Positions 26,293-42,419 are shown, counted from the stretch's first letter. The stretch is 64,000 nucleotides of DNA from Chlorobiaceae bacterium (GCA_013334965.1 JAAXWO010000001.1:213929-277928), one strand, 5' to 3'. Program-made: numbers and translations. Notes: generated from the sequence alone by a model not told the origin.

Positions 26293-26697
26293 GATTTTAC
26301 TCTTTAATTGATGGTTGCGCTGTTCATGGTAATGGACTGCGGTGTTTCGCCAGAAGGTTCCGTGCGGTGATTTGTGTCTTGATTCTGCAATAAATGACGA
26401 TGGTGAATAGAGCGCGCAGATATTCATTTTTTTCAATCGATTCAGGCCTTAATTATCGTGTGGCCACTGGTAGCAGTAAATATTTGTTTTTTTTTGGTCA
26501 AGCCCATGGAAAAACAGGTTAAGCCTTTATAATTTAGGTTTTGTAAGTATTGTTATTAATTATTTAATACATAAATGTAAAAATAATTTGTTTTTTAAGT
26601 TTTTTAATCGGAAATTCATGAGGATTGTGCTTCTCTTTTTTTTAATTATCGTTATAGACTGGCGGATATAACGTATGCGGCCTAAAAGTAAGTCATC
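26293..26697. other. AT-rich border of the transport island
   Basis: 405 bp without a gene between the divergent molbindin and SUMT-like genes. From about 26440 the composition becomes much richer in A and T than the surrounding coding DNA. GTATT at 26547-26551 and AATAC at 26566-26570 form a short inverted repeat. The ModE-type box at 26650-26673 is the only strong signal. Confidence 0.6.
26650..26673. promoter_or_regulatory. ModE-type operator 1 (SUMT-like gene)
   Basis: Half-sites CGTTATAG and ATATAACG are exactly 8 bp apart. The second is the reverse complement of CGTTATAT, so 7 of 8 positions are symmetric. It matches the E. coli modA operator layout, whose half-sites as I recall them are CGTTATAT and ACATAACG with 8 bp between. 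It ends 24 bp before the ATG of the SUMT-like gene. Confidence 0.75.
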
Positions 26698-27501
26698 ATG
26701 AGAGAAAACAAACAGAAAAACCCAGTTTTGATTGTCGGTACAGGCCCTGGTGATCCCGAACTGTTGACGGTAAAGGGGGATCGGGCGATCCGTAATGCCG
26801 ATGTGATCCTGTATGACTGCAAGACGGTAGAGCCTGCATTGCTTGTCGCATCCGCAACCGCAACAGTCATTGCCGTTGAACGTTCGCAGTACGAAAGTGG
26901 AGAGGGGTGCCGCGAGGAGACGCCGATGATCAGGTCTATCCGGGATCATTATCTCGGAGGACGAAAGGTCGTGCGCCTGAAGGCTGGCGATCCGACGCTG
27001 TTCGGGGGTGAAGTAGACGAGTGTGACCTCCTCGACCAGCTCGGCATTCCCTATGCGATCGTACCGGGAGTATCTGCCGGGGCCGCGGCAGCCTGCGCCT
27101 ACGCCATGCCGATCAGCCGCAAATTCGAGAGCGACGCCGTAGTCAACATTATTGTCAACGAAGTAAACGATGAACTCGGCTCTCTTCTCAGGAATGGGGC
27201 TAAAATGTTCGGGCAGGGAGCGACCATGGTGCTCTATATGGCTACAGCGAACCTTCCCGTCATACTCGGGATATTCAGTGAAGAAGGGGTTCCGGATGAT
27301 ACTCCGGTTGTCGCGGTCAGCAAGGCAGGCTGGCCGGAAGAGGCCATGGTTGAAACCACGCTGGGCGCTATGGGGGCAGAAGGTTTTTCCTTGGGCATCA
27401 GTGAGCCTGTGGTCTACACTATAGGACGATACGTGAGGGTGAGGATTTCGCCTTTCGAATCCCGGAAGCGTTCTGCCATTTTCTCGAAATGTTTAAAGTG
27501 A
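26698..27501 (+). CDS. SUMT-like tetrapyrrole methylase (divergent)
   Basis: A 267-residue member of the tetrapyrrole methylase family, closest in pattern to uroporphyrinogen-III C-methyltransferase, which makes precorrin-2 from uroporphyrinogen III. It has VGTGPGDPELLTVKG (14-28), RLKAGDPTLFGGEVDE (~98-113), VPGVSAGAAAACAYAMP and TMVLYMA. The usual GGDP reads AGDP and the PLTHR-type segment reads PISRK, so it is not a standard SUMT. It is the first gene of the island and follows a ModE-type box. Its substrate could be uroporphyrinogen III or another macrocycle. Confidence 0.82.
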   Translation: MRENKQKNPVLIVGTGPGDPELLTVKGDRAIRNADVILYDCKTVEPALLVASATATVIAVERSQYESGEGCREETPMIRSIRDHYLGGRKVVRLKAGDPTLFGGEVDECDLLDQLGIPYAIVPGVSAGAAAACAYAMPISRKFESDAVVNIIVNEVNDELGSLLRNGAKMFGQGATMVLYMATANLPVILGIFSEEGVPDDTPVVAVSKAGWPEEAMVETTLGAMGAEGFSLGISEPVVYTIGRYVRVRISPFESRKRSAIFSKCLK

Positions 27502-27519: not shown

Positions 27520-27543
27520 AGTTATGTAGTAAAAGTTATAACG
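27520..27543. promoter_or_regulatory. ModE-type operator 2 (first TonB receptor)
   Basis: Half-sites AGTTATGT and TTATAACG with exactly 8 bp between them lie in the gap between the SUMT-like gene and the receptor gene, ending 15 bp before the receptor ATG. Each half differs from the E. coli-type half-site at one or two positions. The position suggests an internal regulated promoter. Confidence 0.6.
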
Positions 27544-27558
27544 CAACGATCGGATCCA

Positions 27559-29586
27559 ATGAAAAAAACAATATTGACGGTTTTACTGCTGGCCTCAGTC
27601 CGGCCGGCGATGGCGGCAGAGCAATCAGCCGTTATAGGCGATGATTCTGCAACGGTATTTACCGCCGGTGAGGTTGTCGTAAGCGGCAAAAAAGAGATTG
27701 CAAGAGAACGGGTGAGTGCCCGCGAAATCGAAAAACTTGACAGGAAGACGGTTACCCAGGCGGTTAACCTGCTTCCCGGTGTGACACTCGGGAACGTCGG
27801 CGGGCGCAATGAGGGCATGATCTATGTGAGAGGCTTCGATATGCGGCAGGTACCGCTTTACCTCGATGGAGTACCGCTCTACGTCCCTTATGACGGATAT
27901 GTCGATCCCAATCGTTTCACGACCTTCGATCTCTCTGAAATTTTCGTCTCCAAGGGGTTCTCTTCTGTGCTTTACGGCCCGAACAATCTTGGTGGAGCAA
28001 TCAACATGGTGAGCCGCAAGCCTGAAGGGAAGCTCGACGGCAACGTGAAAGGAGGAATATCGTTTGCTGATGATGCATTGGCATCAAAATTCACTTCGAT
28101 CAATATCGGCTCGAACCAGGGCAAGTGGTACGTGCAGGCTGGTGGAACGATTCTTGACCGCAAATTCATTGCATTGTCGGATTCCTTCAAGCAGACAGCC
28201 GATGAAAACGGTGGACAACGGGATCACTCCGATACAAAGGATATGAAGGGCTCTATCAGGATCGGCTTTACTCCGAACGAAACCGACGAGTACAGCCTTT
28301 CTTTCAGCGCTCTTCATTCGACAAAAGGCATACCCCAATACACCGGAGCTGACAGGACCAGGCTGAATTCAGTATTAAGCGCAGGTTCAGCCAGTGACAG
28401 GAATAAAGTGAAGTATTGGGGGATTGAAGCATGGGATAAATCAAGCCTTTATTATATCGGCAAAACGTTGATCGGTGAAAAAAGCTACGTGAAGACCAAA
28501 GCCTATTTCGACAATTACTACAATGCTTTCAAGTACTACAAGGATGTGACATACACCTCCTATTCCGACATCAGTTACTATGATGAAAAGACCTTTGGCG
28601 GTGGTGTAGAGTTCGGTACTGAAATCATCAGCAACGATATTCTGAAATTCGCCTTGCTGGACAAGTCCGACAAGCACAGGGAAAACAGCGTTAAGGTGCC
28701 GCTGCCCAAGGAGATGGAAGACAATACCTTTTCTGCTGCGGTTGAAAACACCTGGAGCGCCTCGAAAAATATCTCGGTCATCGCCGGCATCAGGCAGGAT
28801 TTTCACAGTGTGATCAGGGCTGATGGTTATAACAGCAGCTCGACAGCCACGATACCGTTTCCGACAAGAGACAGCCAGGCGACGAATTACCAACTGGCCA
28901 TTTCCGGGAAGTTGGATGATCTTCAGGATATAACAGCCTATGTGGCTCAGAACACCCGGTTCCCTACCCTGAAAGATCGTTATTCGTACAAAAACTTTAC
29001 GGCGACACCGAACCCGGAACTGCAACCCGAGCACAGCTGGAATTATGGGCTGGACTACAGCATCAGGCCTTCCGGTAATCTCAGGCTTTTTGCTTCTGTT
29101 TACCAGAGTAGGCTGACTGACACCATTCAGCAGGTATCCAAGGCCGTCAATGGTCTGGACCAGATGCAGAACACGGGTAAATCCACCTTTACGGGAGCTG
29201 AAGTTGCCGCTGACTGGACAGCGATGAAGGGGTTGAAAACCAATCTGTCATACAGCTACATAAAACGTGAAAACGAGAGCAACCCCGCGATCCTGTTTAC
29301 CGATGTTCCCAGGAACAAACTGTCTGGATACCTGCAGTTCCTGCTCGGGAAGAAAAACTGGGTCATGCTTGAAGGCGAATACGATTCCAAACGCAACAGC
29401 TCTTCAGACGGCAAGTACATTGCCGGTTCCTTCGCAGTGGCAAACATCAGGGCCAGCGCCGGTCTGACAGGGCAGATTTCGATACAGGCCTCTGTGGAAA
29501 ACCTGTTTGACAGGAATTACCAGATTTCCGAAGGGTACCCCGAAGCGGGCAGGGCCTACGTCATGTCGGTGGCATATGCCTTTTGA
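27559..29586 (+). CDS. TonB-dependent outer-membrane receptor 1
   Basis: A 675-residue receptor with a signal peptide of about 19 residues (ending RPAMA). A plug domain follows (EVVVSGKKEIARERVSAREIEKLDRKTVTQAVNLLPGV...; IYVRGFDMRQVPLYLDGVPLYVPYDG at ~92-117; SSVLYGPNNLGGAINMVSRKP). A beta-barrel ends in the aromatic terminal strand SVAYAF. Receptors of this class take up chelated metals or cofactors with TonB energy. Directly downstream are FecC and FecE homologues. The ModE-type box in front of it suggests a molybdenum or tungsten chelate as substrate, which is inference. Confidence 0.9.
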   Translation: MKKTILTVLLLASVRPAMAAEQSAVIGDDSATVFTAGEVVVSGKKEIARERVSAREIEKLDRKTVTQAVNLLPGVTLGNVGGRNEGMIYVRGFDMRQVPLYLDGVPLYVPYDGYVDPNRFTTFDLSEIFVSKGFSSVLYGPNNLGGAINMVSRKPEGKLDGNVKGGISFADDALASKFTSINIGSNQGKWYVQAGGTILDRKFIALSDSFKQTADENGGQRDHSDTKDMKGSIRIGFTPNETDEYSLSFSALHSTKGIPQYTGADRTRLNSVLSAGSASDRNKVKYWGIEAWDKSSLYYIGKTLIGEKSYVKTKAYFDNYYNAFKYYKDVTYTSYSDISYYDEKTFGGGVEFGTEIISNDILKFALLDKSDKHRENSVKVPLPKEMEDNTFSAAVENTWSASKNISVIAGIRQDFHSVIRADGYNSSSTATIPFPTRDSQATNYQLAISGKLDDLQDITAYVAQNTRFPTLKDRYSYKNFTATPNPELQPEHSWNYGLDYSIRPSGNLRLFASVYQSRLTDTIQQVSKAVNGLDQMQNTGKSTFTGAEVAADWTAMKGLKTNLSYSYIKRENESNPAILFTDVPRNKLSGYLQFLLGKKNWVMLEGEYDSKRNSSSDGKYIAGSFAVANIRASAGLTGQISIQASVENLFDRNYQISEGYPEAGRAYVMSVAYAF

Positions 29587-29600
29587 GAGGATTATCTGAC

Positions 29601-30593
29601 ATGAAAGGTGTTTCCCTGATCCTGGTCTGCGCGTGTGTGCTGGCAGGCATCTGCATCCTATCCCTCGGTTTCGGCCGGTATCCGGTTTCACCGGGTACGA
29701 TTATCTCATGGCTGATAACCGGGGGGAGTACAGATGGCAATGTACCGCTCATAATGGTCAGCATACGGCTTCCCCGGATGTTTGCGGCTGTTGTGGCTGG
29801 CGGGGCGCTCGCGATATCCGGAGCTGCCTACCAGGGACTTTTCCGCAACCCGATGGTCAGCCCCGACATCCTCGGCGTCTCATCGGGAGCGGGTTTCGGG
29901 GCGGCGCTCGCTATCCTGCTTTCGATGTCGCAGGCGTTTGTGCAGCTCATGTCGTTTACTGGCGGCATATCCGCAGTGCTTATCGCCGTGGCTGTCAGCA
30001 GGGCTATCGGCCGGGGGCACGATTCGGTACTCGTGCTGGTGCTTTCCGGTATCGTTGTTTCATCGCTGTTCGGCGCGTTGATTTCGATGCTCAAGTATGT
30101 GGCCGACCCGCTGGACAAGCTTCCTGCCATAACCTACTGGCTTATGGGAAGCCTTGCCGATATCAGGATACGGGAGCTCAGGACGGTGCTTTTCATGGTT
30201 GCAGCCGGGGCAGTTCCCCTGATGCTGGTCAGTTGGAGGTTGAACGTACTGTCGTTCGGTGAAGAGGAGGCTCGATCGCTTGGCCTTCATACCGGAATCA
30301 TGCGTGCAGTGGTCATCGTCTGTGCGACGATGGTGACGGCCAGCGTGATTTCGCTTTGCGGCATCATCGGCTGGGTAGGGCTTGTTGTGCCGCATATCTC
30401 CAGGTTCATTGCCGGTCCGAACCACCGCATGCTCCTGCCTGTCTCTTTCCTGATCGGGTCGGCGTTCATGCTTGCTGTCGATACGGTGGCCCGTTCGGCA
30501 GTTTCCGTGGAGATTCCGATCGGGATCATCACAGCGGTTGCCGGTGCACCCTTTTTCATCTGGGTCATGAAAAAATCATCGATACGCTCATGA
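29601..30593 (+). CDS. FecCD/BtuC-type ABC transporter permease
   Basis: A 330-residue permease with about ten membrane helices. Family motifs are IRLPRMFAAVVAGGALAISGAAYQGLFRNPMVSPDILGVSSGAGFGAALAIL (~56-107), WLMGSLADI and the C-terminal CGIIGWVGLVVPHISRFIAGPNHRMLLP. The ATG at 29601 is preferred to a TTG at 29583 because a GAGAGGA ribosome site lies in front. Members transport iron siderophores, cobalamin, heme or, in the Haemophilus MolBCA system, molybdate. The stop overlaps the start of the ATPase gene. Confidence 0.92.
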   Translation: MKGVSLILVCACVLAGICILSLGFGRYPVSPGTIISWLITGGSTDGNVPLIMVSIRLPRMFAAVVAGGALAISGAAYQGLFRNPMVSPDILGVSSGAGFGAALAILLSMSQAFVQLMSFTGGISAVLIAVAVSRAIGRGHDSVLVLVLSGIVVSSLFGALISMLKYVADPLDKLPAITYWLMGSLADIRIRELRTVLFMVAAGAVPLMLVSWRLNVLSFGEEEARSLGLHTGIMRAVVIVCATMVTASVISLCGIIGWVGLVVPHISRFIAGPNHRMLLPVSFLIGSAFMLAVDTVARSAVSVEIPIGIITAVAGAPFFIWVMKKSSIRS

Positions 30594-31399
30594 TGAACGG
30601 TAACGGCATGGCGCTTCAAATAAAAGGAGCGGGGTTGGGCTACAACGGCAGGGCCATTGTGCATGATGTCGACCTGGAGATCCGGTCGGGCGACATTCTC
30701 TGCCTGCTGGGCCAGAACGGCGCCGGCAAAACGACCCTTTTCAGGACGATGCTCGGGTTCATCAAACCGGTTTATGGTACGATCAGTGTTGACGGCAGGG
30801 ATATGTCGCGTCTTTCGCCGAAAGAGGTGGCTGGATTCGTCTCCTATGTGCCGCAATCCTATGCAATGCCGTTTTCCTACAAAGTTAGTGATGTCGTTTT
30901 GTTCGGCAGGACAGCGCATCTCGGCATGTTTGCTGCGCCTGGGAGAAAAGACCGGTCGATCGCCATGGAGTGTCTTGAGATCCTGGAAATGGCTCATCTT
31001 GCCGAGCGGTCGTTCAACGAACTCAGTGGAGGCCAGCGTCAGATGGTCGTTATTGCCAGGGCGTTAGCTCAGGAGGCGCGTTTCATGATTCTTGACGAGC
31101 CGGCATCGAACCTCGATTACGGCAATCAGGTAAGGGTCATCAGGAAGATCAGGGAGCTTGCCGGTCGTTCGATCGGCATTCTCATGGCGACGCATCATCC
31201 CGACCATGCCTTTATGACGGACTCAAGGGTCGCCGTGCTCTCAAACGGGAGGCTTTGCCACAACGGTCCGCCTGATGAGATGCTTACTTCGGAAACCCTG
31301 AAGCATGTGTATGGCGTGGATGTGCAGGTCTTTGACATGCCTGAAGATTGCGGCGGGACAAGGAAGCTCTGTGCGCCGGTGATGGGGTGGCAAAGATAG
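30590..31399 (+). CDS. FecE/BtuD-type ABC transporter ATPase
   Basis: A 269-residue ATPase with Walker A GQNGAGKTT near residue 42, signature LSGGQRQMVVIARAL (~145-159) and Walker B FMILDEPASNLDYGNQ. The start at 30590 makes an ATGA overlap with the permease stop, a sign of translational coupling. The length is that of FecE/MolC ATPases. With the permease before it and the binding lipoprotein two genes later it forms a complete importer. Confidence 0.92.
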   Translation: MMNGNGMALQIKGAGLGYNGRAIVHDVDLEIRSGDILCLLGQNGAGKTTLFRTMLGFIKPVYGTISVDGRDMSRLSPKEVAGFVSYVPQSYAMPFSYKVSDVVLFGRTAHLGMFAAPGRKDRSIAMECLEILEMAHLAERSFNELSGGQRQMVVIARALAQEARFMILDEPASNLDYGNQVRVIRKIRELAGRSIGILMATHHPDHAFMTDSRVAVLSNGRLCHNGPPDEMLTSETLKHVYGVDVQVFDMPEDCGGTRKLCAPVMGWQR

Positions 31400-31431: not shown

Positions 31432-32064
31432 ATGTATACCATGGATGCGATGGAGTTCAACGAGAAGATCATGAAGGGGCATTTCCGGAAAATCTACCCG
31501 GAGATCGCCAGGCAGGTCATCAATCGTACCGGAGTGGTCACCGGCAGGTGCATCGACCTGGGTGGAGGGCCGGGGATGCTCGGCATCTCCCTTGCAAAAA
31601 TCACCCTGCTTCGAGTTACCGTGGTGGACCTCATGCCGGAGTGTGTCGAGCTGGCCAGGCAGAACAGTCTTGAAGAGGGATATGCGCATCGGGTTGATGC
31701 TATGCAGGGGGTGGCGGAGGATCTGCCATTCGCAGACAGGTCGATCGATCTTGTCGTAAGTCGGGGATCGATCTTTTTCTGGGAGGATCAGCAGCATGGG
31801 CTTTCTGAAGTGTTCCGTGTGCTCAGGCCGGGGGGCTGGGCGTACATCGGCGGCGGTTTCGGCACCATTGAGCTGCTTCGGGAGATAGAACAACTCAGGG
31901 CGGGCGATCCCGAATGGAACCGGAAGCGAAAGGAGAGGATGGCAAAGAATCCCCCCGGGCATTACCGGTCACTGCTCGAAAGGCTCGGTATCCCCGGGAC
32001 AGTGGAGCATGAGGAGGCTGGCACCTGGATCATATTCAGCAAACCCAAGGAGGTAACGCCATGA
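31432..32064 (+). CDS. Class I SAM-dependent methyltransferase
   Basis: A 210-residue Rossmann methyltransferase with motif I CIDLGGGPGMLGISLAK (~42-58), the acidic loop VVDLMPECVELARQ, and DLVVSRGSIFFWED. The last third is short, so the substrate is likely small. It lies between the FecE-like and FecB-like genes; its own stop overlaps the next start (ATGA). Such methyltransferases occur in several metal-chelate transport loci. Here it might modify a chelator or tetrapyrrole together with the SUMT-like enzyme, which is inference. Confidence 0.85.
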   Translation: MYTMDAMEFNEKIMKGHFRKIYPEIARQVINRTGVVTGRCIDLGGGPGMLGISLAKITLLRVTVVDLMPECVELARQNSLEEGYAHRVDAMQGVAEDLPFADRSIDLVVSRGSIFFWEDQQHGLSEVFRVLRPGGWAYIGGGFGTIELLREIEQLRAGDPEWNRKRKERMAKNPPGHYRSLLERLGIPGTVEHEEAGTWIIFSKPKEVTP

Positions 32065-33185
32065 AAAGAAACTTTATGAATCCATCCCGTATGTTGAGGC
32101 TGATGCTGCCGCTGCTGCTCCTTTCGCTCTGCGCGTGCGGCAAAGCCGTAAAAACCCGCATCGACACTCGACAGGTCACGGATATGGCCGGCAGGAAACT
32201 GACCGTCCCCACTGATATCAAAAGGGTCTACTCGACCCGGCCCGGCAGTGTGGTGCTCTATGCCGTCGCTCCTGACCTGATGGTGAACCGTTCGCTCTGG
32301 ATTACCGACGGATCGGAAAAGTTCATGAGCGAAGCCTACCTGAAGCTGCCCTTCGCGGACGGGTCGGCCGAAGAGATCATCAAGCTCCATCCGGACCTCA
32401 TCATCTCCTGGTTCAACATCAATCCCAAGTCGATCGAAGAGGCTGACCGGCTCAGTGCCAAAACCGGTGTCCCGGTATTCATGGTCGACATGGATATGAA
32501 GCGGTATACGCAGTCGTTCGCGACGATGGGAGATCTGCTTGGCCGAAAGGAGCAGACCGACAGGATGATTCGCTATGTCGAGACCTGGCTTACCCCGTTG
32601 TTCGACAAGGCTGGGCAGATACCTGACAGCAGAAAGAAAAGGGTCTATTACGCCGAGGGCGGTATGGGGTTGAACACTGATCCTTCGGGCTCCTTCCACA
32701 GCGAAGTGATCGACCTGGTAGGTGGAACCAACGTGGCAAAGGTCCAGCTCCTTTCCGGAAAGGGGATGAGCGCGGTTTCGATGGAGCAGCTCCTGAAGTG
32801 GAACCCGGACGTCGTCATCGTATGGACGGGCATGGGGCCCGAATTGACCACCTACCGGAATATCTCCGGTGACCCGTTATGGGCGAAGCTTCCCGCCGTC
32901 AGGGAGCACCGTATCTACCAGATCCCCTGCAAGCCGTTCGGCTGGTTCGACCGGCCTCCGGGAACAAACAGGATCCTCGGGGCGATCTGGCTGGCCAACC
33001 TGCTCTATCCCGAGGTCTATCATATCGATTACGAACGGGCTGTGAAGGAGTATTTCAGCCTCTTTTTCCACCGCGAGCTGTCTGATGCCGAACTGCAGGA
33101 GGTACTGAACCCTCTCTCTTCAGTGGGAGGCTCCCAGGCACATATCGAAAACAAGCCAAAAGGAGATGATGAAACCAGTCGATAG
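32061..33185 (+). CDS. FecB/BtuF-type periplasmic binding lipoprotein
   Basis: A 374-residue binding protein with a lipoprotein-like signal (hydrophobic ~11-23, then SLCACGK). It has the type III (helical backbone) binding-protein layout: VTDMAGRKLTVPTDIKRVYSTRPGS (~40-64), PDLIISWFN (~112-120), TGVPVFMVD, and the long central helix region followed by the second lobe with KWNPDVVIVW. It pairs with the permease and ATPase upstream. The ligand cannot be read from the sequence. Its length is slightly above average because of a ~30-residue C-terminal tail. Confidence 0.88.
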   Translation: MKRNFMNPSRMLRLMLPLLLLSLCACGKAVKTRIDTRQVTDMAGRKLTVPTDIKRVYSTRPGSVVLYAVAPDLMVNRSLWITDGSEKFMSEAYLKLPFADGSAEEIIKLHPDLIISWFNINPKSIEEADRLSAKTGVPVFMVDMDMKRYTQSFATMGDLLGRKEQTDRMIRYVETWLTPLFDKAGQIPDSRKKRVYYAEGGMGLNTDPSGSFHSEVIDLVGGTNVAKVQLLSGKGMSAVSMEQLLKWNPDVVIVWTGMGPELTTYRNISGDPLWAKLPAVREHRIYQIPCKPFGWFDRPPGTNRILGAIWLANLLYPEVYHIDYERAVKEYFSLFFHRELSDAELQEVLNPLSSVGGSQAHIENKPKGDDETSR

Positions 33186-34239
33186 AATGGACAGTGACGG
33201 CAACGTCCTTGCATACTGCGGCGCGCCGCCGCTTCATCGGAAAGCCACCGGAAACGGAGTGCCGCTATTGAGGAAAGGGGCCATCAACCTCTACATGAAC
33301 ATGCCATGCCCTCTCAAGGTGGTGTGTAAAATGGTGATAGGCGAATTTGCAGGACTTTACAACGCCTCGCATGAGGTGCCCATCTATTCACCCATGCTGC
33401 TCGATGGCGATTCGAAGGGGATCGAAGGGGAGCTCAAGGCGGCCATGACCGAGGATGAGCTTCCCGAAGTGCTTGTCGCATCAGGCCTGCATACGGTTCT
33501 GTCGAAAGGGTTTCGGGAGCGATTCATCGACACCGGCGTGTACCGTGGAGTCACGAGCGAATCAGCTCTTGCCAAAATGCCTGAACTGTATCGCCGGTTG
33601 GTCTCGCAGCACAATATCGGGATATACAGCACTGGATTCTGGAGCGTCGTCTGCGATCTCTCCCTGGAGTCAGGCGTACCCTATCCGCGGAGGTGGCGCG
33701 ACCTTGTCGATCCGTCGTACAAGGATCTCGTCACGGTCCATGGCTATAACGGCAAGGCGAGCATCGCCTCACTGCTCCTTCTGCTCAGGGAGCAGCTCGG
33801 CAGCAGTGCCATTACAGACTTTGCCTCCAATATCCGAAACGTCTGGCATTTCGCCGAGATACTGAAGCGCATCGATTCGTCCGAGCAGAGGCGTACGCCG
33901 TTCAACCTGTTGCCCAACGCCGCCACGGTGCAGATGCCGTCAAACAAGCGCGGGGCGATCCTCGAGTTCGAGGATGGCCCGATTCTCGCTCCCATGCTCA
34001 TGTATGTCAAGGCATCAAGGATGGAGGAGTGCCGTCCACTGATCAACTTCATGCACAGCAACATCATGCGCCAGGCCCTGCGCAGGGGCGACTTCCACCA
34101 TGCTGACGATTTCGACTGGATGCAGCCATTCTGCTTTCCATCCTGGGATTTTCTCCTGCAATGCGACTATGAGGTCATGACCGAGTCGCTCAACGTCGAA
34201 CTGAAAAAAGGGCTTCGCCCCGACGTTTTTCAAACCTGA
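33166..34239 (+). CDS. Cytosolic binding-protein-like protein without signal peptide
   Basis: A 357-residue protein whose fold pattern resembles type II ABC substrate-binding proteins of the iron/polyamine kind (AMTEDELPEVLVASGLHTVLSKGFRERFIDT..., YPRRWRDLVDPSYKDLVTVHGYNGKASIASLLLLL). It has no signal peptide or lipobox and so should stay in the cytosol. Cys18, Cys48 and Cys54 (MNMPCPLKVVCK) lie near the N-terminus. It overlaps the lipoprotein gene by 20 bp and is followed by the GTPase and the ABC ATPase. A cytosolic carrier of the imported metal or its complex is the most natural guess. I know of no characterised homologue. Confidence 0.7.
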   Translation: MMKPVDRMDSDGNVLAYCGAPPLHRKATGNGVPLLRKGAINLYMNMPCPLKVVCKMVIGEFAGLYNASHEVPIYSPMLLDGDSKGIEGELKAAMTEDELPEVLVASGLHTVLSKGFRERFIDTGVYRGVTSESALAKMPELYRRLVSQHNIGIYSTGFWSVVCDLSLESGVPYPRRWRDLVDPSYKDLVTVHGYNGKASIASLLLLLREQLGSSAITDFASNIRNVWHFAEILKRIDSSEQRRTPFNLLPNAATVQMPSNKRGAILEFEDGPILAPMLMYVKASRMEECRPLINFMHSNIMRQALRRGDFHHADDFDWMQPFCFPSWDFLLQCDYEVMTESLNVELKKGLRPDVFQT

Positions 34240-34259
34240 CTGAAATTCTGAAATCAATC

Positions 34260-34961
34260 ATGAAACTTGTAACCATATCGGGTCCTCCATCGTCAGGCAA
34301 GACCGCTATCCTTGCCGGTGTCATCCGCTCGATGATCGCATCAGGAATCAAGGTAGGAGCGTTGAAATACGACTGCCTGGCCACGGATGATGACACCCTT
34401 TTTCGCTCGCTGGGAGTGCCCGTGCAGACTGGTCTTTCGGGTAACCTCTGTCCGGACCACTACTTTGTGAGCAACATCGAGGAGTGCCTCGACTGGGGTT
34501 TTCGCCATGGGCTTGATTTCCTGCTCTCCGAAAGCGCAGGCCTCTGCAACCGCTGTGCTCCCCACATCAAGGGGGTGCTCGCGGTATGCGTCATTGACAA
34601 CCTCATGGGCGCGACCACCCCGAAGAAGATCGGGCCCATGCTGAAGTATGCCGATATCGTGGTCATCACCAAGGGAGATATCGTATCCCAGGCGGAACGC
34701 GAGGTTTTCGCCTTCCAGGTGAGACGGGCCAACCCGAAGGCCAGGATCATGCATGTCAACGGCATTACCGGCCAGGGCGCAGGCGAGCTGGCTTCCCAGT
34801 TCCTGCACGCACCTGAAACCACATGCCTCGACGGCTCCCGCCTGCGTTTTTCCATGCCTGCGGCCCTTTGCTCCTATTGCCTCGGTGAAACGAGGATCGG
34901 CATGGAGCATCAGCTCGGCAATATCAAGAGGATCAAACTGAAAGAGGAGCCGATTTCATGA
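34260..34961 (+). CDS. HypB/UreG-like metallochaperone GTPase with Cys pairs
   Basis: A 233-residue P-loop protein of the HypB/UreG/CooC type: Walker A GPPSSGKT (8-15), a switch segment DFLLSESAGLCNRC (86-99) where HypB has an IENxGNLVCP-type motif, a base-recognition motif TKGD (137-140) in place of NKxD, and MHVNGITGQGAGEL like the closing SALTGEG motif. Cys96/Cys99 and the C-terminal Cys204/Cys207 could hold a metal ion. HypB and UreG use GTP to insert nickel. The neighbours here suggest molybdenum or tungsten handling, which would be new. Its stop overlaps the next start. Confidence 0.8.
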   Translation: MKLVTISGPPSSGKTAILAGVIRSMIASGIKVGALKYDCLATDDDTLFRSLGVPVQTGLSGNLCPDHYFVSNIEECLDWGFRHGLDFLLSESAGLCNRCAPHIKGVLAVCVIDNLMGATTPKKIGPMLKYADIVVITKGDIVSQAEREVFAFQVRRANPKARIMHVNGITGQGAGELASQFLHAPETTCLDGSRLRFSMPAALCSYCLGETRIGMEHQLGNIKRIKLKEEPIS

Positions 34962-35953
34962 ATATCCTTGAGAGAACCATGGCAGACCTTTACGAGAATA
35001 TGCCCCAGGTCTCGCTTTTCCTGGGCGATTACGGTCTCGATCCCCTTGAACGCGGCATTCCGCTCGGCCTCTGGCTGGAGTCACTTCCGGAAGAGATGTA
35101 TGAGGATATCGGCATCGATATGCGGGGTCTGGTTGAAAACCTCGAAGAGTATCTCCTTCAGCAGCAGATGCTTCAAAGCGGCCACCTTCCGGCAGTCGAA
35201 GAAATTACGGTCATCGGCGGCAGGGACAAGGGCGGTAATCCTGAAAAGGTGCGCCTGAACCTGAAGCGAGGATCGGTCACCAGCATCGTCGGACCTACGG
35301 GCTCAGGCAAGAGCCGCCTGCTGGCCGACATCGAATGGATGGCGCAGTGTGATACGCCGACCGGCCGGACGATCCTGGTCAATGGTGAAAAACCGGATCC
35401 GGAACTGAGGTTTTCGCTCGAATACAAGCTCGTTGCCCAGCTTTCACAGAACATGAACTTCGTCATGGATACCACGGTCGCCGAGTTCGTGGCGATGCAT
35501 GCCGAAAGCCGCATGGTGGATAACATCGAGGGCGTGGTGGAAGAGATCGTCACCCAGGCCAATCAGCTTGCAGGCGAACCTTTCAGCACGACCACCCCGG
35601 TCACGTCGCTTTCGGGAGGGCAGTCAAGGGCGCTGATGATCGCTGATACGGCTTTCCTCAGCTCCTCGCCCGTCGTATTGATCGACGAGATCGAAAACGC
35701 CGGCATAGACCGGAAAAGGGCGTTATCACTACTGGTCAGGAGAGAGAAGATCGTGCTCATGGCCACACACGACCCGATTCTCGCCCTGATGGCTCAGCAA
35801 CGCATGGTCATCAGGAACGGCGGTATCCACCGTGTGATTAAGACCACGAAGCGGGAGAAAGAGAACCTTGCAGTACTCGAATCGTTCGACAACAGGTTGC
35901 TGGCCCTGCGCACGCGCCTGCGAAACGGCGAATTGATCGAAGAGGTTCCCTGA
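34958..35953 (+). CDS. Orphan ABC ATPase with DUF1858-like N-terminal domain
   Basis: A 331-residue soluble protein. Residues ~4-68 (TMADLYENMPQVSLFLGDYG, then GIDMRGLVENLEEYL) resemble the DUF1858/ScdA N-terminal domain, but without its Cys residues. An ABC-type ATPase follows: Walker A GPTGSGKS (112-119), signature TSLSGGQSRALMIADTAFL (~213-231), Walker B VVLIDEIENAG and a switch His in ATHDP. No permease is encoded next to it. It overlaps the GTPase gene by 4 bp, so the two are made together. A non-transport role such as loading or unloading metal on a partner is inference. Confidence 0.78.
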   Translation: MNILERTMADLYENMPQVSLFLGDYGLDPLERGIPLGLWLESLPEEMYEDIGIDMRGLVENLEEYLLQQQMLQSGHLPAVEEITVIGGRDKGGNPEKVRLNLKRGSVTSIVGPTGSGKSRLLADIEWMAQCDTPTGRTILVNGEKPDPELRFSLEYKLVAQLSQNMNFVMDTTVAEFVAMHAESRMVDNIEGVVEEIVTQANQLAGEPFSTTTPVTSLSGGQSRALMIADTAFLSSSPVVLIDEIENAGIDRKRALSLLVRREKIVLMATHDPILALMAQQRMVIRNGGIHRVIKTTKREKENLAVLESFDNRLLALRTRLRNGELIEEVP

Positions 35954-35991: not shown

Positions 35992-36015
35992 CTTTATAAC
36001 ATCAAATATATAACG
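35992..36015. promoter_or_regulatory. ModE-type operator 3 (second TonB receptor)
   Basis: Half-sites CTTTATAA and ATATAACG with exactly 8 bp between. The right half is identical to that of operator 1. It ends 2 bp before the receptor ATG and thus covers the ribosome site region; no other Shine-Dalgarno sequence is seen. Confidence 0.6.
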
Positions 36016-36017
36016 AT

Positions 36018-38084
36018 ATGGCATTTCTGAAAAAACGTCATGGCAACCTGCTCTCTGTAGCTGCAGCGATCGGTTGTGTTACCGGGTATGCCCAGGCTGC
36101 GGAATTATCTCCTGAATACCAGGGAGAGGAGGTCATTGTTACCGCTACCCGCACGCCCAATACCGTATCCAGGCTGCCTATGGCTGTCGAGGTGATCACG
36201 CGTGCCCAGATTGAAGAGAGCGGTGCGTTGAATCTTTCCGATGTGCTTGCCGAAGCACATGACGTCAATGCCGAGGCATCGACCAACGGAAGGCTCGGGG
36301 TCGCGATGATGAGGGGGCTGGACAGCCGCATGACCCTCGTGCTTGTCGATGGAATACGGCTCACTTCCGGATTCCAGGGCTATGTCGACCTTCACGAAAT
36401 TCCTTCCGGAATAATCGAAAGGATTGAGATCGTCAGAGGGGCAGGATCGGCACTTTACGGAAGCGACGCCGTTGGCGGCGTGGTCAACGTGATAACGCGC
36501 AAGCCTCGCAGGGAGCCGCAGGCCGGCCTGACGCTCTCTGGCGGTGAAAGCCGCTACGCCCAGGTGGGGACCGTCCAGACTGACGGATGGGTGAGCGGCA
36601 CGACAGGCAAGCTCGGTTACGGCGTTGCCGGTTCATGGTATGACCGTGACCGCTATGATCGGGACACCAGGGACCTGACTACCGATGGCGACGACAGGCG
36701 CACAGCTTCCGGCTCTGTGGCGCTGACCTACGCCCTGACACCCGACGTAAAGCTGACTTCAGGCACGATCTATGCCTGGAACAGGCTCGATGGAATTCGT
36801 GCACAGACGTCAGGTAATTTCGGCAGGGTTGTCGACAGTGACAGGTTGATGGCCTATGCCGGTGCCGAAATCAGGACCGGTACAACCTCGAACCTTTCGC
36901 TGCGTGTTTCGAAGAGCACCTACGACTGGTCTTCGGAGATGGATAATCTTGGTGGATTGCCTTACGTCACCACAGCGGTCACATCGGGAATAAAAACGAC
37001 TACAGCCACCAATACCAAGACACTGACAAAGGTATCCCAGGATGCCACACAGTTTGATGCACAGTGGACGGGAACGATTTCCGGGACCAATCGCCTGACG
37101 GCAGGCGTTGAATACCGCACCGAAGAGAGGGATGATTACAGTAAAACGTTGACAAGGAAGGTCGTGACGAAGAACAATATATCGACCGGGGTGATCACCA
37201 GCGGGCCAACAACGACTTCGACGACCGATCTTTCGAATATTTCGCACGATTCAGGCAACCTCGGCCTTTTCGCGCAGGACGAGTTCCGTGTGTCCGAACA
37301 GCTCTCCTTCATTGCCGGAGTAAGGTTTGATGATCATTCCGACTTCGGTTCCGAAGTCAGTCCCAAAATAGCGTCAGTCCTGAGAATCGACGAACACCTG
37401 AAGCTGAGGGCCTCTTACGGCGAGGGGTTCCGGGCACCTTCGCTCTATGAGCTATACACCGGATCGGTCCAGTCCAAGAAAAGCATAATACTGGCGAATC
37501 CCGATCTCGATGCCGAGACATCCAGAAGTTTCGAACTTGGGGCCGACTTTGTTTCCGGAGCCTTCGAATCAGGTATTACCGGTTTCAGGACAGGGGTGAA
37601 GAACATGATTTTACAGGCCCTTGTCGACGCGACGACAACGCCGGCTACCTACAGGTTCGAGAACGTTTCAGAGGCTATGACCCGGGGCATCGAATTCAGG
37701 GGTTCATTCAAGTTGCAGCATGGATGGATGCTTGCCGACCAGGTTTCATTTCTCGATACCAGAAACGAAACGACGGGCAGCAAGCTGCTTTTCGCACCCG
37801 CTTTCACCAACATGGTCAAGCTCTCCTATGCCAATCCCGGCAAGGGCCTGAAAGGAAACATCAGGGTGATCTCAACAGGCTCCCAATACATATCAGCCAG
37901 CGAGAAGGCTGGAGGATACACCCTGGTCAACTGCTTTGTTTCAAAAACGGTCAGTAAAGGGACCGAACTGTTTGCCGGTGCGGACAACCTGTTCAACCAC
38001 GATACCAGTGCGGCATACGGAAACAACGAAGGTGCCGGCATGACCGGAACCTATTTTTATGGCGGCCTGAATTACCGCCTGTAA
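36018..38084 (+). CDS. TonB-dependent outer-membrane receptor 2
   Basis: A 688-residue receptor with a signal peptide ending TGYAQA (~28). The plug domain has the TonB-box-like region EEVIVTATRTPNTVSRLP (~36-53), MMRGLDSRMTLVLVDGIRLTSG and GAGSALYGSDAVGGVVNVITRK. A beta-barrel ends FYGGLNYRL. It differs clearly from receptor 1 and resembles the BtuB/CirA group. It is separated from the upstream ATPase gene by 64 bp containing a ModE-type box, so it probably starts its own transcript with the next gene. Confidence 0.9.
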   Translation: MAFLKKRHGNLLSVAAAIGCVTGYAQAAELSPEYQGEEVIVTATRTPNTVSRLPMAVEVITRAQIEESGALNLSDVLAEAHDVNAEASTNGRLGVAMMRGLDSRMTLVLVDGIRLTSGFQGYVDLHEIPSGIIERIEIVRGAGSALYGSDAVGGVVNVITRKPRREPQAGLTLSGGESRYAQVGTVQTDGWVSGTTGKLGYGVAGSWYDRDRYDRDTRDLTTDGDDRRTASGSVALTYALTPDVKLTSGTIYAWNRLDGIRAQTSGNFGRVVDSDRLMAYAGAEIRTGTTSNLSLRVSKSTYDWSSEMDNLGGLPYVTTAVTSGIKTTTATNTKTLTKVSQDATQFDAQWTGTISGTNRLTAGVEYRTEERDDYSKTLTRKVVTKNNISTGVITSGPTTTSTTDLSNISHDSGNLGLFAQDEFRVSEQLSFIAGVRFDDHSDFGSEVSPKIASVLRIDEHLKLRASYGEGFRAPSLYELYTGSVQSKKSIILANPDLDAETSRSFELGADFVSGAFESGITGFRTGVKNMILQALVDATTTPATYRFENVSEAMTRGIEFRGSFKLQHGWMLADQVSFLDTRNETTGSKLLFAPAFTNMVKLSYANPGKGLKGNIRVISTGSQYISASEKAGGYTLVNCFVSKTVSKGTELFAGADNLFNHDTSAAYGNNEGAGMTGTYFYGGLNYRL

Positions 38085-38102: not shown

Positions 38103-38648
38103 ATGAAAATCAGGATTGCCAGGATAGTCATTCTTGTCGCTTCAGCATGGATTCCGCTCCTTTCGATCGCGCATGCCGATGTCGGGAAGCTTTCACCAAC
38201 AGTGACGTTAAAGGTTTCCGGACTGGTCGGGCATCCTCTCGACCTTTCTGTGGAGTCGATCAGGAAGATGAAGGTTGTCGAAAAAGGGACGACGGACATC
38301 GTATGTGATTCCGGAGTGACGAAGCATGCCCTGAAAAGTTTCAGTGGAGTGCTTCTTCGCGACATTCTCGATTCAGCGAAGGTAGTCATGCCCGAACCCC
38401 ACAAGAGGGGCGAATACTATGTGCTTGTCCGTTCGGAAGATGATTACAATGTGCTCTATTCCTACAACGAGCTTTATTACGGAGTTGCAGGCGAGGGTAC
38501 GTGGCTCGTAATCGAGGAGAACGGTCGACCGATCGGTGAGAACGGGCCTTTCGTGGTGTTCTGCGACAACGATCGCTCCAATGGCCCAAGGCAGGTCAAA
38601 CTGGTGAGGAGTATTGAAATATCGAAAATTCCAGTATCCGGGAAATAG
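38103..38648 (+). CDS. Periplasmic protein with sulfite-oxidase-like (PF00174-type) fold
   Basis: A 181-residue exported protein (signal peptide ~1-25, ending SIAHA). The mature part, [25 protein letters not shown]..., [19 protein letters not shown] and [18 protein letters not shown]...[10 protein letters not shown], follows the pattern of the molybdopterin-binding domain of sulfite-oxidase-type proteins. It is short and lacks the usual cofactor-ligand Cys motif. It follows receptor 2 by 18 bp. A periplasmic ligand-binding role next to the receptor is more likely than enzymatic activity. Confidence 0.7.
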
Positions 38649-38758: not shown

Positions 38759-39814
38759 TCAGCCCAGCCGTCTGAACGAGGAAGCCTTGACTGCGGCGAA
38801 AACGGTTGCTCCAGTGGATATTTCGAGCTCTTCCGCCGCGGTGCGGACGATTTCGGCGACCAGCTTCTGGTTGCCCGATTCGAGCACCACCCCTTTCCTT
38901 CCTCCCGAGTCAAATATCTCTGCAACACGGCATTCGATCAGGTTTCGGGCGCTGATAGCCTCCGGGTTTTTCTTGAACAGGATGATGTCGCGTGACGAGA
39001 GTTCGAACAGCGATTCACCTTCCTGGCGGCCGTATGAAACGATAAGGTTCCCGTTCCCCCACGGGTAGTGGAACAGCCCCTCCTGCATGACGGGATCTTT
39101 AAGGCGAAGAAGGTTCATGTAACCGTTCGGACTGACTGACATATTGGCGCGGGCCAGTTCGTCCGGTGTCGAAACGCCTGAGATGCGTCCCTCCTTCACT
39201 ACGAGCACCCTGTCGGTCATCAGCTGCATCTCGGTGATCGAATGCGAAATGAAGAGGTAGGGTATACGGAACTCCTCGCTGACGCTTCTCAGGTATGGAA
39301 TGATCTGGTAGCGCAACGAGTCGTCGAGCGCCGAAAGCGGTTCGTCCATGATGAGTAGCCGGGGGTTGGCAAGCACGGCCCTGCCGAGGGCGACGCGCTG
39401 TTTTTCCCCGCCGGACAGGTTGCCCGCGCCTCGCTGGAGCAGATGCTCAAGGTTAAGGATTTTTGTAAGGGCCTCCGGAGTGATTTTCCGGTTTTCCGGC
39501 TTGCATCGTTTGTAGCCGTAAAGAAGGTTCGCCCTGACTCCAAGGTGCGAAAAGAGCATCGATTGCTGGAATACGAGGGCAATTCGGCGCTGTTCGGGAG
39601 AGAGATTTATGCTTTTCCTGCCGCTGTAAAGGCAGGTGTCGTCGAGATACAGCTCTCCCGAATCAGGATGCATGAGGCCGGCAATGAGGTGTACGAGGCT
39701 CGATTTGCCGCTTCCCGATGTGCCGAATATGCCGATACGCTCGCCGGAGATCCCGCTTTTCATCTTGAGTGAAAACTCTCCCAGCTGTTTTTCGATGTCG
39801 ATATGCAGAATCAC
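38759..39814 (-). CDS. modC: Molybdate ABC transporter ATP-binding protein ModC
   Basis: A 351-residue ATPase with Walker A GTSGSGKSS (~30-38), signature LSGGEKQRVALGRAVL (~133-148), Walker B LLIMDEPLSALDD, and a C-terminal TOBE domain (ISARNLIECRVAEIFDSGGRKGVVLE... to the end) that binds molybdate in ModC proteins. The start overlaps the modB stop by 4 bp. It ends the modDABC operon on the minus strand. Confidence 0.95.
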   Translation of the reverse strand: MILHIDIEKQLGEFSLKMKSGISGERIGIFGTSGSGKSSLVHLIAGLMHPDSGELYLDDTCLYSGRKSINLSPEQRRIALVFQQSMLFSHLGVRANLLYGYKRCKPENRKITPEALTKILNLEHLLQRGAGNLSGGEKQRVALGRAVLANPRLLIMDEPLSALDDSLRYQIIPYLRSVSEEFRIPYLFISHSITEMQLMTDRVLVVKEGRISGVSTPDELARANMSVSPNGYMNLLRLKDPVMQEGLFHYPWGNGNLIVSYGRQEGESLFELSSRDIILFKKNPEAISARNLIECRVAEIFDSGGRKGVVLESGNQKLVAEIVRTAAEELEISTGATVFAAVKASSFRRLG

Positions 39815-40497
39815 GAAGCCCTCCCGTTTTCCAGCTTTTTACCGACCACTTCGTGCAGAAAAAGGATAGCGACCGACAGGATTACAGATACGAGGCAAAG
39901 GGAAAGGGCCATGGATGTTCCGGTCGGAGAGCTTGCATAATCGTAGATCGCAAGTGGAATGGTCTGTGTAAGGCCGGGAATGTTTCCGGCCACGATGATG
40001 GTCGCACCGAACTCTCCGAGGCTTCTTGCGAACATCAGGGATGAGCCTGCGATCATGCCCCTGAATGAGAGCGGCAGGACGATTGTCGCCATGGTGTCGA
40101 GCCAGGGAGCCCCCAGGCTGCGGGACGCATGGAGAAGCTGCCGGTCGATCGATTCCATGCCTAACCTGATTGATCGCACAAGCAGGGGAAACCCAACGGT
40201 CGCCGATGCTATGACGGCAGCCTTCCAGGTGAAGATGATTTCAATGCCGACGGACTTGAGCGCCGTGCCTGCCCAGCCGTTCCTGCCGAGCAGGAGCAGC
40301 AGGAAATAGCCGATGACCACTGGAGGCAGGGTCAGGGGAAGGTTGACCAGCACTTCGAGCAGCACTTTTCCCCTGAACTTTCCAAAGACGATCAGCCCGG
40401 CCACGGCGAAGCCGAGCGGCAGCGAGATTGCCGTAGCGGTAAGGGCAATCTTGATCGATAGCGCTATGGCGGCGATATCGGAAGGCGTCAGGTTCAT
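39811..40497 (-). CDS. modB: Molybdate ABC transporter permease ModB
   Basis: A 228-residue permease with about five membrane helices and the cytoplasmic coupling motif RSLGEFGATIIVAGNIPGLTQTIPLAIY (~163-190), which is characteristic of ModB. Other marks are LPLTLPPVVIGYFLLLLLGRNG (~53-74) and ASRSLGAPW. The length is typical. It sits between modA (28 bp upstream) and modC (overlapping). Confidence 0.95.
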   Translation of the reverse strand: MNLTPSDIAAIALSIKIALTATAISLPLGFAVAGLIVFGKFRGKVLLEVLVNLPLTLPPVVIGYFLLLLLGRNGWAGTALKSVGIEIIFTWKAAVIASATVGFPLLVRSIRLGMESIDRQLLHASRSLGAPWLDTMATIVLPLSFRGMIAGSSLMFARSLGEFGATIIVAGNIPGLTQTIPLAIYDYASSPTGTSMALSLCLVSVILSVAILFLHEVVGKKLENGRAS

Positions 40498-40525
40498 GTG
40501 CTGTTACGGAGTGTTTGCTGAAGGG

Positions 40526-41275
40526 CTATTTCAGGATGAACCCATTCTTTTTCAGGATCGATTTGGCTTCGCCACCCTGCAGCCAGTCAATAAAGGCTTT
40601 TGCTTCGCTGTTTTTGGCGCCGGTTGCGGTCAGCGCCATAGGGTAGGTTACCCTCGAATAGAGTTCGTCCGGTACAGTGAAGAGGATTTTGGCCTTTTTC
40701 GCCTGGAGTGCATCGGTCCGATAGACGAAAGCACCGTCGACTTCGCCCAGTTCGGCATACATGAGGCACTCCCTGACATCCTTGCCCATGATCAGTTTGC
40801 CGGTGAGTTTCTGTTCGACTCCGGATTTCCTGATGGCCTGCATCGCGTAGTCGCCTGCGGGAACGCTTTTCGGACTGCCGATGGCGATCTTGTCGAGTGC
40901 TGCAAGATCGTTCATGCCGGTGACTTTTTTGCCTGTCGAACCTGCAAAAACCAGAAGGTTGTAGGCAAAGCTTTTCTCGCTGGCTGCATCTACCAGTTTT
41001 TTGTTTTTCAGGTAATCCATCCATTCATTGCTCGCAGAGATGAAAAGGTCAGCCGGAGCGCCGTTCTCAATCTGGCCGGCAAGGGCGCCGGAAGCCCCGA
41101 AATTCTTGACGAACGTGGTGCCGGGATGGGTTGCCGTATACCTGTCGGTCATCTCGTTGACGCTCTCTTTCAGGCTGGCCGCCGCTGAAAGGTTGAGCTG
41201 GCCGGCCATCGCCGGGATGGCCGTCGTCATGAAAGTGCACAGCAGCACTACGATACGTCTGAAGGTCTGTTTCAT
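40526..41275 (-). CDS. modA: Molybdate-binding periplasmic protein ModA
   Basis: A 249-residue binding protein with a signal peptide of about 24 residues (ending IPAMA). The mature part begins LNLSAAASLKESVNEM, the ModA opening that contributes the ligand-binding Ser residues. Further marks are FVKNFGASGALAGQIENGAPADLFISAS (~57-84) and AIGSPKSVPAGDYAMQ (~130-145). It binds molybdate or tungstate in the periplasm. Its start overlaps the modD stop by 4 bp. Confidence 0.95.
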   Translation of the reverse strand: MKQTFRRIVVLLCTFMTTAIPAMAGQLNLSAAASLKESVNEMTDRYTATHPGTTFVKNFGASGALAGQIENGAPADLFISASNEWMDYLKNKKLVDAASEKSFAYNLLVFAGSTGKKVTGMNDLAALDKIAIGSPKSVPAGDYAMQAIRKSGVEQKLTGKLIMGKDVRECLMYAELGEVDGAFVYRTDALQAKKAKILFTVPDELYSRVTYPMALTATGAKNSEAKAFIDWLQGGEAKSILKKNGFILK

Positions 41276-42138
41276 GGCTTGTATGGTTGATGTTTGTTGT
41301 TGATGACAGCTGAAATATCTGAAGGTTTGCCGAAATAGACCGACGACAGGACGATGATGTCTATACCTGTGGCGGCATAGGCGGCCGCGTTGTCGGCATT
41401 GATGCCTCCGGCGGCTGAGACGGCGACGCCAGGACAGGTCGCCCGGATATCCAGGACCAGTTTCGACAGTGCCGCGATGGAGAGCTTGTCCACCTGGACC
41501 ACGTCTGCTCCCGCCCTGGCGATAATGAGGGCTTCATCTGGCGACTCGGCCTCTACGATGATCCTGTGTTCAGGAGCTTTTTTCTTAAGGGCAGCAAGAG
41601 TGTCGAGGAATGGTTCAAGTCCGCCCGTAAATACGGTGTGTTGAGGGAATACGAGGATCGATCCAGAAAGGCCGAGCCGGTGGGGAAGCGCACCTCCCGC
41701 CATGATAGCCTTGATCGCCACTTTTTTGGTCCCCGGAAACGACTTCCTCGTCGTCACCACGCTGACGCCCGGATTGGCGGCTTTGGCGCGCTCTACGATG
41801 TTCATTGTCCGTGTGGCGATTCCGGAGGCATACTCCAGCAGGTTGACTGCCGCTTTCCATCCTGCATGCAATCCGCCAGCCAGGCCTTCCGCCTTCAGAA
41901 TGAGGGTGCCCGGTTCGGCAACCGTGCCTGACGGCAGTGAGAATGTGGTTTCAGCTCCGCATTTTTCCAGCAATCGTCCGGCCTCTTCAGTGCAGCATAT
42001 CGCCGTTCGTTCACGCGTCGTGAAGCGTATTTCCCCAGCCATTCCATCAATGCCGAGCAATGTCGTCGTCAGGTCGCCGTAAGGAACGTCCTCTTCGAGG
42101 AAGCTCTCTATTGCTGAGTCTTGAATACGGTAATGCAT
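41272..42138 (-). CDS. modD: ModD protein (NadC-like phosphoribosyltransferase fold)
   Basis: A 288-residue member of the quinolinate phosphoribosyltransferase family in its ModD branch. It opens with SAIESFLEEDVPYGDLTTTLLGI, then has GGLHAGWKAAVNLLEYASGIATRTMNIV (~88-115), TRKSFPGTKKVAIKAIMAGGALPHRLGLS and VVQVDKLS. In other bacteria modD lies in molybdate transport operons and its reaction is not established. It is the first gene of modDABC and lies directly behind ModE-type operator 4. Confidence 0.92.
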   Translation of the reverse strand: MHYRIQDSAIESFLEEDVPYGDLTTTLLGIDGMAGEIRFTTRERTAICCTEEAGRLLEKCGAETTFSLPSGTVAEPGTLILKAEGLAGGLHAGWKAAVNLLEYASGIATRTMNIVERAKAANPGVSVVTTRKSFPGTKKVAIKAIMAGGALPHRLGLSGSILVFPQHTVFTGGLEPFLDTLAALKKKAPEHRIIVEAESPDEALIIARAGADVVQVDKLSIAALSKLVLDIRATCPGVAVSAAGGINADNAAAYAATGIDIIVLSSVYFGKPSDISAVINNKHQPYKP

Positions 42139-42155: not shown

Positions 42156-42179
42156 CGTTATGTCATCAAGGTTATATCG
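42156..42179. promoter_or_regulatory. ModE-type operator 4 (modDABC)
   Basis: Half-sites CGTTATGT and TTATATCG with exactly 8 bp between. Read on the minus strand, the direction of modD, the second half is ACATAACG, identical to the E. coli modA half-site as I recall it. It lies 17 bp upstream of the modD ATG, where binding would block transcription or translation. Confidence 0.75.
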
Positions 42180-42395: not shown

Positions 42396-42419
42396 CGATA
42401 TGCAATATAGGATATAACG
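42396..42419. promoter_or_regulatory. ModE-type operator 5 (orphan)
   Basis: Half-sites CGATATGC and ATATAACG with exactly 8 bp between. The right half is identical to operators 1 and 3. No complete gene starts just behind it: a 20-codon frame begins at 42427 and lolD only at 42621. It may be a second operator or belong to a lost gene. Confidence 0.45.

Follow-up and report, generated by a model that had tools for sequence, protein, structure and literature searches.

The described systems closest to the locus reported here each resemble it only in part. In importers of the Fbp/Afu type the binding protein is exported and a permease is dedicated to it; the G3E GTPases HypB and UreG have HypA and NiFe hydrogenase, or urease, as partners; soluble ABC ATPases of the SufC/SmsC type have partners of the SufB/SufD type; and members of the ModE regulon, to which the ModABC importer belongs, are marked by an upstream palindrome in a genome that also carries a ModE gene. 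NifQ is the known molybdenum donor for FeMo-co, and to our knowledge the route by which molybdenum reaches nitrogenase in anaerobes lacking NifQ is unsettled.

Here we analyze three adjacent genes (the trio) encoding a binding protein, a GTPase and an ABC ATPase. The initial annotation of this DNA knew of no described system of this composition, and none was found in the literature that could be searched (for the composition of the trio, for DUF1858, and for ModE or molybdenum import with TonB receptors in Chlorobi), although other papers could hold a description. Nor does any of the three proteins reach the cut-off of a curated NCBIfam family.

Organization of the locus

The window, that is, the whole 64-kb stretch of DNA that was analyzed, comes from genome G000 (2.48 Mb, 20 contigs), that of a green sulfur bacterium (Chlorobia), and the genomes nearest to it are likewise from green sulfur bacteria; the trio locus lies on contig 12. 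The trio genes are complete open reading frames on the plus strand, overlapping or closely spaced as had been annotated, and lie among the following features.

26650..26673, perfect ModE-type palindrome CGTTAT-N12-ATAACG, upstream of the operon start
26698..27501, plus strand, divergent tetrapyrrole-methylase family protein (PF00590), below the uroporphyrinogen methyltransferase cut-offs
27520..27543, ModE-type palindrome with 1 mismatch, upstream of TonB receptor 1
27559..29586, plus strand, TonB-dependent receptor 1
29583..30593, plus strand, FecCD/BtuC-type permease, the single permease gene
30590..31399, plus strand, FecE/BtuD-type importer ATPase (the reading frame opens at 30356; likely start about 30590)
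31432..32064, plus strand, SAM-dependent methyltransferase (PF08241)
32061..33185, plus strand, FecB/BtuF-type binding protein with a lipoprotein-like leader (PF01497)
33166..34239, plus strand, trio binding-protein gene, 357 aa (PF13343 fold, predicted cytosolic, no leader peptide)
34260..34961, plus strand, trio HypB/UreG-like G3E GTPase gene, 233 aa (C64-P-D-H67, C96xxC99 and C204xxC207 invariant)
34958..35953, plus strand, trio soluble ABC ATPase gene, 331 aa (five-helix N-terminal domain, about residues 1-75)
35992..36015, ModE-type palindrome with 1 mismatch, between the trio and TonB receptor 2
36018..38084, plus strand, TonB-dependent receptor 2
38103..38648, plus strand, exported SUOX-like small protein (PF00174)
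38759..42138, minus strand, divergent molybdate importer operon, modC, modB, modA and QRPTase-like modD (modABC assigned by inspecting the sequence and the order of the genes)
42156..42179, perfect ModE-type palindrome, upstream of the mod operon
42396..42419, second perfect ModE-type palindrome, by the mod operon in the same intergenic region as the preceding site

The genes from the tetrapyrrole methylase through TonB receptor 1, FecC, FecE, the SAM methyltransferase, FecB, the trio and TonB receptor 2 to the SUOX-like protein are co-directional. The upstream fecB-like gene overlaps the trio's binding-protein gene by 20 bp, and the GTPase and ATPase genes overlap by 4 bp, here and in nearly all Chlorobia. 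Several relatives also conserve the small SUOX-domain protein, exported and encoded next to TonB receptor 2, and sequence inspection of the window also revealed a RuBisCO-like protein gene at 20336-21637.

Composition of the three proteins

The first protein of the trio had been annotated as a substrate-binding-protein fold without a signal peptide, and the analysis agrees. It matches the SBP_bac_6/FbpA fold (PF13343, E 1.5e-58; 198.6 bits against a gathering cut-off of 24.6), the best Foldseek matches of its structure model (medium quality, pLDDT 68.6) are P5PA and thiamin-, ferric- and hexose-phosphate-binding proteins, and a simple hydropathy scan of its N terminus found no hydrophobic leader, while the neighbouring FecB and ModA have one. 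What it has in common with binding proteins of the FbpA, AfuA, P5PA and ThiB type is thus the fold and the PF13343 match, but it differs from them in lacking an export leader and a cognate permease, in having a GTPase as partner, and in a conserved N-terminal Pro-Cys motif (P47-C48). The exported binding protein and dedicated permease of an Fbp/Afu-type importer are both missing from the trio, which encodes no permease, and the Fec permease next door has partners of its own.

The second protein is a G3E GTPase (PF02492). Its G1 motif, its E-variant G3 (ESAG) and its Cys-His-Cys metal site align with HypB, C64, H67 and C99 falling on the Cys-His-Cys nickel site of the HypB of G000 itself, the true HypB, which is encoded separately at locus L001. 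Against these similarities, the trio GTPase has an additional cysteine, C96, and an additional C-terminal CSYC segment, and it lacks HypA or urease partners. It scores well below the cut-offs of both families (HypB, TIGR00073, 45.1 bits against 121.2; UreG, TIGR00101, 24.2 bits against 204.2), and no hyp or hydrogenase genes were found beside the trio that would indicate a partnership with HypA and a NiFe hydrogenase. The description of this protein as HypB/UreG-like, with cysteine pairs at positions 96/99 and 204/207, is nevertheless correct: C64, H67, C96, C99, C204 and C207 are invariant in 14 GTPase sequences, that of Fusobacterium included. These HypB-like residues, together with the genomic context, suggest that the trio binds and delivers a metal.

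The third protein is an ABC ATPase (PF00005) with no permease of its own, as annotated. Its fold is closest to transporter-type nucleotide-binding domains, and SmsC2 is among the structural matches. With the SufC/SmsC-type ATPases it shares a stand-alone ABC ATPase and a metal context, but it is without a SufB/SufD-type partner, its Walker B region reads LIDEIENAGIDR, and it carries a five-helix N-terminal domain, which was modelled confidently (AlphaFold, pLDDT 82.8). The earlier description of this domain as DUF1858-like is not confirmed: Pfam returned no match to PF08984 even at E<10, and a profile-profile comparison gave a weak match of 24 columns (probability 10%, single-comparison P 0.003). 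A genuine DUF1858 is carried by the binding protein of Fusobacterium (54.0 bits against a gathering cut-off of 32.2), the ATPase of which is without the five-helix domain; if the two domains are related, an exchange of domains between partners may be suggested.

Conservation of the trio

Orthologues of the GTPase were counted in 395 genomes sampled in the phylum, and all 22 carriers belong to the order of G000, so that trio orthologues are found in 22 of its 98 genomes (Chlorobia). Three of the 22 are visibly broken: G210 retains only a remnant, in G016 there is a GTPase-ABC fusion, and the copy in G306 is truncated. The fusion (L081, about 9038-10105, minus strand) apparently arose by a deletion joining the GTPase and ABC genes, suggesting decay of the trio, and the G210 remnants (L083, 9800-10500) lie between modAC and nifB. 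The trio is also carried by a Bacteroidales MAG (L020, G395), the sole match among 198 genomes of its class, and by a Fusobacterium vincentii record (L037), in which the GTPase is 61% identical and the ATPase about 60%. That record (NZ_CP084075.1, 2.1 Mb) is labelled a plasmid and looks like a Fusobacterium chromosome; genes for a DUF6162 protein and a Znu-type metal importer follow the trio there.

Plasmid searches with the GTPase and the ATPase returned only the Fusobacterium record besides ordinary HypB and UreG, and alignment searches of viral contigs with the same two proteins gave no matches. The collection-wide scan had the binding protein, which is less conserved than the GTPase, as its query, and the distribution given here is that in the groups just named. 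Purifying selection on each of the three genes is strong (omega 0.04-0.13, from pairs with unsaturated dS). The trio thus recurs as a unit in Chlorobia, the Bacteroidales MAG and Fusobacterium, and no member has a clear unrelated function, as the initial proposal of a module requires.

ModE-type sites

Work by Studholme and Pau in 2003 reportedly dealt with ModE sites in green sulphur bacteria. We scored the palindrome CGNTAT-N12-ATANCG, made of the outer segments of the E. coli ModE consensus (PMC545781). The 2.48 Mb genome contains just five perfect copies, of which the 64-kb window accounts for three; a fourth is beside modE and nifB. In 440 kb of DNA surrounding 22 trio loci we counted 36 perfect palindromes, where 0.3 would be expected; homologous loci are not independent in this count, though their operon layouts differ.

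Sites also precede trios that stand alone. In L011, L012 and L018, where FecBCD is missing from the locus, the binding-protein gene is preceded by a ModE-type site at a distance of 73-178 bp. In the Bacteroidales MAG a site lies 71 bp before the trio operon, the last gene of which encodes a ModE-type DNA-binding protein. The single site at the start of the Chlorobaculum tepidum operon (L082) has one mismatch, and no ModE-type site was found at the Fusobacterium trio locus; a few other trio loci are too near a contig edge to be judged. A further perfect palindrome in G000 (L066, C16:51402) accompanies a main reading frame that resembles another TonB-dependent receptor.

With upstream palindromes far above chance and a ModE gene in the genome, the regulon first proposed as putative now has strong support, and predicted control of the trio by ModE, which would bind these palindromes, is well supported on sequence grounds. 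The trio would share with the ModABC/ModE regulon its predicted regulator as well as its neighbourhood, and no known member of that regulon was found with the composition of the trio.

The metal and the enzyme served

Elsewhere the trio neighbours modE (L098, L110), modABC (L114, L084), nifB (L111, L112, L080) and anf genes (L098, L080/L101). The interpretation that we prefer, while giving it a little less than an even chance, is that the trio acts as a cytosolic machine for handling metal, placed under ModE control and turned on by a shortage of molybdenum. An outer-membrane receptor and an ABC importer (FecCE/FecB, or of the Mod type in some relatives) would import a scarce molybdenum species or chelate, which the cytosolic FbpA-fold protein would capture. 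The soluble ABC ATPase could drive opening or remodelling of the binding protein, perhaps docking through its N-terminal helical domain, and the HypB-like GTPase would take the metal on its Cys/His site and hand it over in a GTP-controlled step, nitrogenase cofactor assembly being the most likely destination. The cargo, the order of hand-over, the formation of a complex and the client are all proposed here from domain content and context; molybdenum or a molybdenum complex as cargo, with nitrogenase as client, is our best reading and not a proven one.

Delivery had initially been proposed to nitrogenase or to molybdopterin enzymes, and the neighbourhood speaks for the former. MoaC was found neither in the Bacteroidales MAG, which may be incomplete, nor in the Fusobacterium carrier, which argues against molybdopterin enzymes as the general client. 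Because MoaC is absent from the MAG and both a Mo- and an Fe-only nitrogenase are present, nitrogenase is favoured there. The same MAG holds a third nitrogenase-like gene set (L127, contig C155). In Fusobacterium the only nitrogenase candidate is a weak family match interrupted by stops; without MoaC or a convincing nitrogenase in this organism, the GTPase/ATPase core is therefore not nitrogenase-specific and would have a broader use.

A possible role in moving molybdenum to nitrogenase is what the trio would have in common with NifQ, to which its proteins, having other domains, bear no sequence relation. NifQ (PF04891) is absent from 97 of the 98 Chlorobia, and none is present in G000 or in any other Chlorobia genome carrying the trio. 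An obligatory replacement of NifQ was considered and rejected, since the trio is missing from 76 of the 98 genomes, almost all of which are without NifQ as well; the trio is therefore to be regarded as a conditional accessory rather than an obligatory molybdenum donor.

The main rival to molybdenum delivery, which we consider unlikely if still worth serious attention, is that in the absence of molybdenum the trio uses nickel, iron, zinc or cobalt to mature a Mo-free replacement metalloenzyme, in which case ModE control would mark a Mo-free backup and the Fusobacterium core would serve an enzyme of its own. Soft Cys/His ligands such as those of the HypB-type site suit nickel, zinc, iron and cobalt better than molybdate, unless molybdenum is sulfur-ligated, and this point counts both for the rival and against the molybdenum reading, as does the Fusobacterium core, with neither MoaC, a convincing nitrogenase nor a ModE-type site. 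In addition, ModE-type repression serves Mo-free nitrogenases in other diazotrophs (PMC7294313). On the other hand, no candidate client enzyme accompanies the trio throughout, and the neighbours that do are molybdenum importers, modE and nifB.

A narrower proposal, that the trio supplies iron to the Fe-only (Anf) nitrogenase in particular or matures its cofactor, draws on several gene arrangements. In a Chloroherpeton-like genome (L077) a paralogous binding protein directly follows anfHDGK and anfO, with its own ModE-type site just upstream; in G172 the trio and anf are divergently arranged, and in G030 and G002 they lie near each other; the Bacteroidales MAG has anf; and 6 of the 11 Chlorobia genomes with anf (among 98) carry the trio, more than chance predicts (Fisher P 0.014, kinship ignored). 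This co-occurrence and the anf-linked paralogue also count for the preferred reading. Against the narrower proposal, the remaining 5 of those 11 are without the trio, and no AnfG/VnfG gene was found in most trio carriers, G000 and C. tepidum included, which makes this proposal improbable in our estimation.

Relation to the importer

The trio was initially described as following a complete FecBCD-type importer, which holds here, where TonB receptor, FecC, FecE and FecB genes lie upstream, but the association is not essential elsewhere. In two genomes (L085 and L086, in G015 and G010) the importer operon is retained and the trio deleted to a short remnant of the binding-protein gene, and in three Chlorobium-type loci (L079, L102, L115) the trio occurs with a Mod-type importer in place of FecBCD. 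Retention of the importer after loss of the trio, and pairing of the trio with a different importer, are both what one would expect of a step that follows import.

The genes around the trio also raise the possibility that, rather than delivering metal to an enzyme, it acts with the two co-operonic methyltransferases to release metal from an imported metallophore- or tetrapyrrole-like chelate. The tetrapyrrole-methylase-family protein and the SAM methyltransferase are indeed in the operon and conserved with the importer, and TonB receptors imply a large substrate. But the three Chlorobium-type operons have the trio without the two methyltransferase genes, and the two deletion genomes keep methyltransferases and importer without the trio, and we hold this explanation to be just as improbable as a dedicated Anf function, or slightly more so. 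That the binding protein and the ATPase are auxiliary importer parts (an inward-facing binding protein and a trans-acting ATPase) is very improbable, for although the ATPase fold is nearest to transporter-type domains and the genes are co-operonic with the importer, the importer already has an ATPase and a binding protein, and the independence of importer and trio argues against it.

Implications

A more general idea, which is speculative and which we consider unlikely, is that the trio represents a new kind of dual-nucleotide metal-transfer machine, in which a soluble ABC ATPase would load and open a cytosolic Venus-flytrap carrier and a HypB-like GTPase would unload it. In NifQ-less anaerobic diazotrophs it might capture trace sulfur-ligated or chelated molybdenum for nitrogenase, and in other anaerobes a change of binding protein might adapt it to other metals. 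Sulfidic conditions convert molybdate to thiomolybdate (PMC10390477).

A ModE-controlled module containing a GTPase of metallochaperone type in green sulfur bacteria makes molybdenum supply in the absence of NifQ a testable question, as the trio is carried by C. tepidum, a described N2 fixer (PMC5715403). If general, it would add an architecture of soluble carrier, ABC ATPase and G3E GTPase to the known NTPase metallochaperones.
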